From positions 1 to 20,328 of IMG/VR virus record IMGVR_UViG_3300006350_000238: 20,328 nucleotides of DNA. One strand, written 5' to 3'. Positions 690 to 16,405 of this stretch are shown here, in pieces. Positions within the stretch are counted from its first letter, which is position 1; every line of letters begins with the position of its first letter. Below the pieces are notes generated by a model. The model saw only the letters and a program-made list of their open reading frames with translations, ran no database searches and was not told the DNA's origin. Source of the DNA: a virus. A program made the position numbers and the translations under genes.

Positions 690-721
690 AAAAAGACCCT
701 ACTATTAATAGGGTCTTTTTT
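690..721 (+). terminator. Intrinsic terminator after gp32
   Basis: A 12-bp perfect stem (690-701 with 709-720) carries a GACCCTA/TAGGGTC core and a 7-nt loop, and ends in a run of six T (716-721). It lies 20 bases downstream of the gp32 stop and separates gp32 from the next small gene. Confidence 0.92.
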
Positions 722-15412: not shown

Positions 15413-15427
15413 CAAACTCTTTTTGTG

Positions 15428-15976
15428 ATGATTCAAGTTATTAATGATTATTTGAAACCAGAAGAACTGAAGGTTATACAGGATTTAATGTATGAACCTG
15501 GTTTTTGGTCGTATGATCCCTTTAAAGTCCGCTATAACGATATAGAAGAGGATGATTTAAGGGATGGTCAGTTTAATCATGGGTTCTATAATAGTGCTAC
15601 AATGCACCAATCGGAGCATATAGAGAAATTATTCCCTATTTTTTGGCGAGCGAACCCCTTAGCACTCTACAGAATTAAGGCAAACCTCGAAAAATACGGT
15701 GGAGAGAAGAAATATGAGAGCGAATGGCACTGGGATTGGCAGAATGATGAAAAAATCCCCTGTAAGAATATGCAAACTGCTATATTTTACGTAAATAGCA
15801 ACAACGGATACACACAATTTGAGACAGGAGAGAGTATAAGGAGTTTACCTAACCGTATGGTGACGTTTCCAAGCAACTTAAAACACAGAGGTGTGTCATC
15901 AACCAACTCAAAAGAGCGTTATGTGATCAATTTTAACTGGTTTTTACCAGAGCTTGACAAATCCAAGAGTGTTTGA
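15428..15976 (+). CDS. 2OG-Fe(II) oxygenase superfamily protein
   Basis: I chose ATG 15428 over GTG 15425, giving 182 residues. The iron triad is visible: H101 and D103 in EWHWDW, and H153 in PSNLKHRG, with R164 (KERYVINFNW) placed to bind 2-oxoglutarate. The strand AIFYVNSNNGYTQF before the second His is typical of prolyl-4-hydroxylase-like enzymes. Such proteins are frequent in marine T4-like phages; their substrates (protein side chains, nucleic acid or small molecules) are mostly unknown. It follows the PAAR cluster and is the last gene of the operon. A sigma70-type promoter for a downstream RNA starts inside its 3' end. Confidence 0.88.
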   Translation: MIQVINDYLKPEELKVIQDLMYEPGFWSYDPFKVRYNDIEEDDLRDGQFNHGFYNSATMHQSEHIEKLFPIFWRANPLALYRIKANLEKYGGEKKYESEWHWDWQNDEKIPCKNMQTAIFYVNSNNGYTQFETGESIRSLPNRMVTFPSNLKHRGVSSTNSKERYVINFNWFLPELDKSKSV

Positions 15977-15982
15977 TATACT
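15954..15982 (+). promoter_or_regulatory. Near-consensus sigma70 promoter (TTGACA-17-TATACT)
   Basis: TTGACA at 15954-15959 is followed after exactly 17 bases by TATACT at 15977-15982, one mismatch from TATAAT. The predicted start is near 15988-15990. This is the best host-type promoter in the window and differs from the late boxes elsewhere. It overlaps the last codons of the oxygenase gene. Confidence 0.8.
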
Positions 15983-15987
15983 ATATA

Positions 15988-16153
15988 CGTTGAGTTGATC
16001 GCTCAACACGGGAGTGACTGAATAAACTTACTGGCATATTGCTGGTTAAGGTGATGAGACAGAGGTGGTGCTCGCTGTCAGAAATGGCAGAACTATCTTA
16101 CCAGATAGGTCTTAGGCAAAAAGGTATTTACACTGTAGTAATGCCCCTTTTTT
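15988..16153 (+). ncRNA. Candidate structured small RNA (about 165 nt)
   Basis: The sequence between a sigma70 promoter and an intrinsic terminator has no credible gene. It starts with a 6-bp hairpin (GTTGAG 15989-15994 with CTCAAC 16002-16007, 7-nt loop). A middle domain can pair CTGG-TTAAG 16042-16050 with CTTACCAG 16097-16104 (one bulge), enclosing GACAG 16058-16062 with CTGTC 16075-16079. A competing hairpin CTATC/GATAG lies at 16093-16108. It ends at the terminator at 16118-16153. It could be a free regulatory RNA or a leader that controls the 51-aa gene downstream. I could not match it to a tRNA, Yfr family or known riboswitch by eye. Confidence 0.6.
16118..16153 (+). terminator. Intrinsic terminator of the candidate small RNA
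   Basis: GGTATTTAC (16123-16131) can pair with GTAATGCC (16138-16145) with one T bulge, flanked by AAAAA (16118-16122) and TTTTTT (16148-16153), so the stem can extend. Six T follow a C-rich base. It lies about 70 bases before the next start codon. Confidence 0.75.
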
Positions 16154-16222
16154 GTTGGTATACAGGAATCCAACCTCCCACCTCACCACACACAAGAAAA
16201 ATATCTTTCCTTATTTTCGATT
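16154..16222 (+). other. Leader of the 51-aa gene with a small hairpin and C/A-rich tract
   Basis: GTTGG 16154-16158 can pair with CCAAC 16170-16174. A pyrimidine-rich, then CA-rich unstructured stretch (about 16175-16200) follows up to the ATG at 16223. No promoter box is clear, so the small gene may depend on read-through from the promoter at 15954 or from the oxygenase operon. Confidence 0.4.
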
Positions 16223-16378
16223 ATGGCAGTTAGAACTAAGATGGGTGGATTTGGAACTACTCTTGTAGTAGAGAAGAATCAGAAAAAGACCAGTCAGGGC
16301 ACAAGTAAAAACACAAAATATAGTGCAACTAGTAGAAACAAACGGAAAAAGAGGTATCGAGGACAAGGAAGGAACTAA
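16223..16378 (+). CDS. Small basic conserved cyanophage protein (51 aa)
   Basis: A 51-residue frame runs from ATG 16223 to TAA 16376-16378: it opens MAVRTKMGGFGTTLVVEKNQ and continues with KTSQGTSKNTKYSATSRNKR, ending in a Lys/Arg/Gly tail. I recognise the 'KMGGFGT...GTSKNTKYSATSRNK...KYRGQG' pattern as a recurrent tiny protein of T4-like cyanophages. It is strongly basic and may bind nucleic acid or be a minor virion protein; function is unknown. A terminator follows directly, so the message likely ends here. Confidence 0.82.
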   Translation: MAVRTKMGGFGTTLVVEKNQKKTSQGTSKNTKYSATSRNKRKKRYRGQGRN

Positions 16379-16380
16379 CA

Positions 16381-16405
16381 GGGGGTCATTCGACCCTCTT
16401 TTTTT
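16381..16405 (+). terminator. Intrinsic terminator after the 51-aa gene
   Basis: GGGGGTC (16381-16387) pairs with GACCCTC (16392-16398), one G-T wobble, with a 4-nt ATTC loop and seven T (16399-16405). It begins two bases after the stop codon. Confidence 0.92.

Follow-up and report, generated by a model that had tools for sequence, protein, structure and literature searches.

What is the transcription unit that separates the 2OG oxygenase gene (15425-15976) from the 51-aa phrog_516 gene in a 20,328-nucleotide stretch of viral DNA (hereafter the window), and does it serve the gene that follows it or act in its own right? The window is a fragment of a T4-like cyanophage from the baseplate region, and its genes encode a gp32-type ssDNA-binding protein, baseplate wedge, tube-cap and hub proteins, a PAAR protein, a 2OG-Fe(II) oxygenase, the phrog_516 protein, gp25 and a gp6-like wedge protein. 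Strong palindromic terminator-like hairpins were also seen at window positions 690-720 and 1003-1042, between the gp32-like gene and the convergent baseplate genes. A preliminary description, made from the letters of the window, had proposed an autonomous small RNA unit here and suggested a search with Rfam covariance models.

Running that search with cmscan returned a single Rfam match in the window, the manA RNA (RF01745), with a score of 186.3 bits (E 7.9e-51) against a gathering cut-off of 55.2 bits and an alignment spanning model positions 1-192 of 192. The RNA of the window is a full-length, complete manA copy, and so belongs to a catalogued family and is not a new RNA. It shares with RF01745 all 192 model positions, the same helices and the same host range, marine T4-like cyanophages. 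The wcaG RNA (RF01761), which was named together with manA in 2010 and is likewise a cyanophage structured RNA of unknown function, is a separate Rfam family and has no match in the window. What had been described as a small RNA unit is indeed a promoter-driven structured RNA without a protein; it turned out to be a known family, and its proposed end and middle switch did not withstand comparison with relatives. The features discussed below are collected in Table 1.

Table 1. Features of the manA locus, in window coordinates.
Feature	Position	Strand	Basis or remark
-35 box TTGACA, within the last codons of the 2OG oxygenase gene	15954..15959	+	same place in 140/152 non-redundant manA copies
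-10 box TATACT, preceded by TG	15977..15982	+	gap to P1 5 nt, the commonest value in relatives too
manA RNA (RF01745), full length	15988..16184	+	start = predicted transcription start; cmscan
P1 start-site hairpin of manA	15988..16008	+	Rfam structure
Closing helix GGGAG (16010-16014) / CUCCC (16175-16179) round the multi-branched core	16010..16179	+	37 divergent copies
Core hairpin with ACCA loop (one of two alternatives first proposed)	16093..16108	+	98% paired, 4/5 pairs covary
Helix AAAAAGG/CCUUUUU, first read as a terminator	16118..16152	+	7/7 pairs covary, 99% paired
51-aa gene (phrog_516), downstream neighbour outside the RNA	16223..16378	+	PHROGs E 2.4e-19
Intrinsic terminator (predicted), 8-bp stem then TTTTTT	16380..16405	+	terminator prediction

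The TTGACA-17-TATACT promoter of the preliminary description is borne out. It matches at 11 of 12 positions and is the only sigma-70 site of this quality, hence the best, in the 20 kb, while weaker sigma-70 sites are no commoner than in shuffled sequence (35 vs 44; 45 vs 48). Because the site is conserved in relatives, it is not a product of chance: a promoter with at least 11/12 matches stands at this fixed place in the non-redundant copies (Table 1) and in 117 of the 128 copies of a first set, compared with 0.9% of random 85-nt pieces and 2.5% of regions upstream of ORFs of at least 150 aa. Of 119 copies, 78 have 5 nt and 109 have 4-6 nt between the -10 box and P1, so that manA has its own promoter fixed at the 5' end of the RNA, as an independent small RNA gene should. 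Only four copies score below 10/12; two of them lie directly after a tRNA gene (L043, L114), and the other two keep TTGACA with a changed -10 box (L034, L250). A truncated copy (L090) is promoterless and also follows a tRNA gene. Host-type transcription of the manA unit can fairly be inferred from these data. The accompanying claim that all other promoters in the window are of a late type was not supported, since TATAAATA occurs there just twice, below the mean chance expectation of 3.6.

In 54 of 136 copies, by a permissive test under which some examples are weak, the -35 box lies within a hairpin followed by a T run, forming an upstream terminator that overlaps the promoter. About 50 nt upstream of manA in L125, L009, L128 and other loci, TTGACA forms part of the loop or of an arm of such a terminator-like hairpin, whose T run then falls between the two promoter boxes (GAGGGTGCTTGACACCCTCTTTTTTTATGCTATAAT is one example).

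The evidence for structure is comparative, since the fold energy by itself is unremarkable (z = -1.7). In a set of 37 divergent manA copies, the whole structure is paired in 91.6% of cells, compared with 78.9% after shuffling and at most 46% after sliding. This analysis of homologues, which had also been suggested beforehand, revealed two-sided changes at 35 of 55 pairs, and manA membership is thereby backed by a conserved secondary structure with compensatory changes. The start-site hairpin and folded middle domain first noticed in the window are genuine parts of manA. All six pairs of P1 change on both sides among relatives, and its low pairing (61% of cells) is probably due to misalignment of this variable stem by MAFFT. 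The closing helix is 100% paired and nearly invariant. Several unpaired stretches that are nearly invariant as well, CUGAAUAA, UAAGGUGAU, GGUGGUG and GUAUACAG, form a candidate binding surface; one idea was that UAAGGUGAU and GGUGGUG might imitate a ribosome-binding sequence.

The same comparison relocates the 3' end of the RNA. The preliminary description had ended the unit at a six-T terminator after about 165 nt, whereas T16148-16153 form the 3' arm of helix 16118-16124/16146-16152, and the RNA is about 197 nt long, reaching 16184, some 30 nt beyond the proposed end. An end at 16153 would remove half of the closing helix, because its CUCCC arm lies further downstream. No G+C-rich hairpin followed by an unpaired U tract was found at 16118-16153; the U tract lies within a covarying helix, and we rejected this terminator candidate. 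A 165-nt small RNA released here would explain the A/U-rich hairpin with six T in the window sequence taken alone, but a T run longer than four occurs at this helix in the window only, being missing from the other 36 of the 37 copies, and the closing helix requires 16175-16179, making this reading highly improbable.

A proposed switch in the middle of the RNA fared no better. Its alternative pairing, 16042-16050/16097-16104, is paired in 74.3% of cells compared with 73.7% after shuffling and lacks covariation, whereas the competing hairpin at 16093-16108 is the conserved one. Mutually exclusive folds, as expected of a riboswitch, were thus unsupported as far as this pairing goes. The statement that the unit holds no convincing gene proved sound: only 35 of 155 copies keep the ATG frame that follows the conserved AAGGUG free of stops across manA, on which ground a protein-coding reading was dropped, and the 64-aa ORF at 16039-16233 has no match to a Pfam or PHROGs family.

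To place the window copy within its family, we relied on a collection of manA loci. A search with a conserved 20-mer yielded at least 120 viral stretches and three GTDB stretches; with two further scans and annotated phages, this grew to 265 copies in 265 loci, 156 of them non-redundant at 90%. The copies were gathered by exact conserved patterns, which biases the sample towards typical marine copies, and the loci share ancestry, so that locus counts are non-independent events. Each of the 12 complete manA-bearing phage genomes carries exactly one copy. Among seven further cyanophages, only S-SSM7 has manA, and a search of the T4 genome found nothing, which marks manA as an accessory element. 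Two of the GTDB matches are contigs of gammaproteobacterial MAGs. The third (L123, QCLS01000003.1) is a 189-kb contig that holds manA and is filed under a Prochlorococcus single-cell genome; a cellular origin was set aside, as its ORFs resemble, by eye, subunits of a T4-type recombination nuclease. This manA is probably phage DNA, and the contig probably represents the genome of a cyanophage that was sorted together with its host. In two cyanophage contigs (L058 and L035), matches to glutamine riboswitches (RF01739, RF01704) lie about 0.1-0.5 kb from manA.

The published view of manA is that of a cis-regulatory leader. Weinberg et al. 2010 (PMC2864571) marked manA as 'certainly' cis-regulatory and 'probably' a riboswitch; Rfam, in which the alignment was revised in release 14.3 (PMC7779021), types it as cis-regulatory. 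A riboswitch would sense a metabolite during infection and control the next gene, here the 51-aa gene. The complex conserved core accords with this view, as does the original judgement of Weinberg et al., and in many loci manA lies 20-60 nt before ORFs on the same strand, among which metabolic neighbours recur (transaldolase, a ManA-like cupin, Hsp20).

The neighbourhood as a whole points elsewhere. Across 143 non-redundant loci, the next ORF falls into 38 families, a count that is approximate because ORF calling was crude; gp32 (31 times) and transaldolase (19 times) are commonest, followed by unknowns, Hsp20, a ManA-like cupin and others. A terminator lies within 150 nt after manA in 41 of these loci and a tRNA gene (Asn, Gly or Asp) comes next in 11, offering the RNA a candidate 3' end of its own in 52 loci, with neither found in the remaining 91. 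With 38 families, tRNAs and terminators downstream, manA does not precede a functionally coherent set of genes, which bears on its functional label and leaves its membership of the family, given by sequence and structure, untouched. Moreover, among 122 pairs of copies that are at least 97% identical, the next family differs in 105, and the ungapped identity of near-identical pairs ends at the 3' end of the RNA (median 0 nt beyond). The RNA is thus independent of its neighbours.

Two observations concern individual neighbours. Past the terminator and about 50-110 nt after manA, five loci (L021, L024, L037, L046 and L050) share a similar stretch, TGTTATAATTAGTAGTGTCGCCTTCGGGGACA, before an Hsp20-like gene; this stretch is possibly a further promoter whose leader forms a hairpin. 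In phage P-TIM68, a minus-strand gene is annotated after manA (AVU42_gp171, L133:4242-4547), and a plus-strand ORF like those of L062 and L088 spans it. The minus-strand gene is probably spurious, and we dropped this opposite-strand neighbour as evidence against cis regulation.

The history of the 51-aa gene bears on the same question. It is conserved in 236 phage records and normally occurs without manA: in P-SSM2 it lies near 71.8 kb and manA at 142.8 kb, about 71 kb apart, and in S-ShM2 it lies between the PAAR and gp25 genes with no manA. The most economical account has manA inserted before the 51-aa gene in the lineage of the window (also L100 and L103). The suggestion that the unit is a conditional leader of the 51-aa gene may hold in cis here but is unlikely to be its purpose, as the gene is found without manA. 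No terminator was found in the window between manA and the 51-aa ORF; the predicted terminator behind this ORF is likely to be a real one that ends a joint transcript of the two.

Taken together, control of the next gene by a riboswitch is, in our judgement, improbable yet deserves to be kept in view. Because manA and the next gene are separated by neither a terminator nor a tRNA in 91 of the 143 copies, the cis-regulatory view retains some standing, whereas the unrelated next-gene families, the near-identical copies beside different genes, the tRNA genes among the neighbours and the single copy per genome speak against it, as do the 51-aa genes found without manA and the failure to find, in the window, an alternative fold acting as an anti-terminator or sequestering a ribosome-binding site. 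RF01745 carries a cis-regulatory type, yet a promoter fixed throughout the family, independence of position and occurrence as a single copy suggest a unit that stands by itself.

About 30% of manA copies (45 of 154 non-redundant ones) are followed, after 6-15 nt, by a companion hairpin module with the layout GACC-UAAGAUGCAA-(short hairpin)-GGGCAGAU-GGUC. Its outer stem is GACC/GGUC in 35 copies and AACC/GGUU in 10, paired in all. In the viral collection, 117 of 118 exact matches to the module follow manA, and the remaining one (L188) is cut by a contig end; examples are L020:8953-8985, L036:1975-2008 (minus strand) and L056:2084-2117, with 115 further loci. The module can often be a terminator, since a run of at least six T follows it in 25 of the 45 copies. 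It has no Rfam match in the loci tested. The window lacks it, and the first terminator there after manA is the one behind the 51-aa gene. A fuller picture, for which we see about even chances, is that manA is a mobile trans-acting RNA gene and not a riboswitch: a host-type promoter, whose -35 box is in some copies part of the hairpin of an upstream terminator, then the manA fold and, in these 30%, a manA-exclusive 3' module with invariant internal loops, often doubling as a terminator, would be shuffled between genomic sites as a unit.

Some structured RNAs at or near the start of transcripts, such as the put RNA of HK022 and the EAR RNA, act irrespective of the identity of the downstream gene. 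By analogy, manA could modify RNA polymerase or protect the transcript, so that the next gene is expressed through terminators. In favour of such an element, manA consistently begins where a strong promoter has its predicted +1, 41 of 143 loci have a terminator separating the RNA from the gene, and manA is indifferent to the identity of that gene. The promoterless copies after tRNA genes (L043, L090 and L114) are not at +1, copies before a tRNA or terminator show no obvious need of an operon, and there is one copy per genome; unlike manA, put and EAR have no Rfam match in the window. We regard this explanation as quite unlikely, less so only than the 165-nt terminated RNA.

The best fit, which we hold with somewhat more than even confidence, is that manA is a phage RNA gene complete in itself, driven by a host-type promoter of its own, and not the switch of any one gene. 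Transcription by host RNA polymerase, whether aided by phage factors or not, would start at about 15988, and the RNA would fold co-transcriptionally, first into the P1 hairpin and then into the multi-branched core closed by GGGAG/CUCCC. During infection, it would work chiefly in trans, as a structured RNA with a role of its own, since a promoter fixed at the first base, a single copy, independence of neighbours and tRNA or terminator surroundings are what such a gene would be expected to show. The sequence downstream would be incidental, being a terminator, a tRNA gene whose processing would free the 3' end of the RNA, or read-through, in the window into the 51-aa gene up to its terminator. 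Several points count against an RNA gene. In 140 of 143 loci, manA and the next ORF share a strand, as for a 5' leader, although this discriminates weakly because cyanophage genes are mostly co-directional. A terminator after the RNA also fits a switch that attenuates transcription. Finally, 91 of 143 loci lack a terminator or tRNA, gp32 and transaldolase recur, and the window has no terminator before the 51-aa ORF.

The passages of the P-HM2 transcriptome study considered here (PMC5082946) contain none on phage non-coding RNA.

Stable RNAs C and D of T4 are phage-encoded, stable structured RNAs of unclear function near tRNA genes, and we know of no relation between them and manA. Since 2010, the manA RNA has stood as an orphan candidate riboswitch. 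Should it prove to be an RNA gene, ligand searches that take downstream genes as their guide are misdirected, manA needs a different Rfam type, and abundant ocean phages would possess a stable structured RNA with which they probably manipulate Prochlorococcus or Synechococcus.
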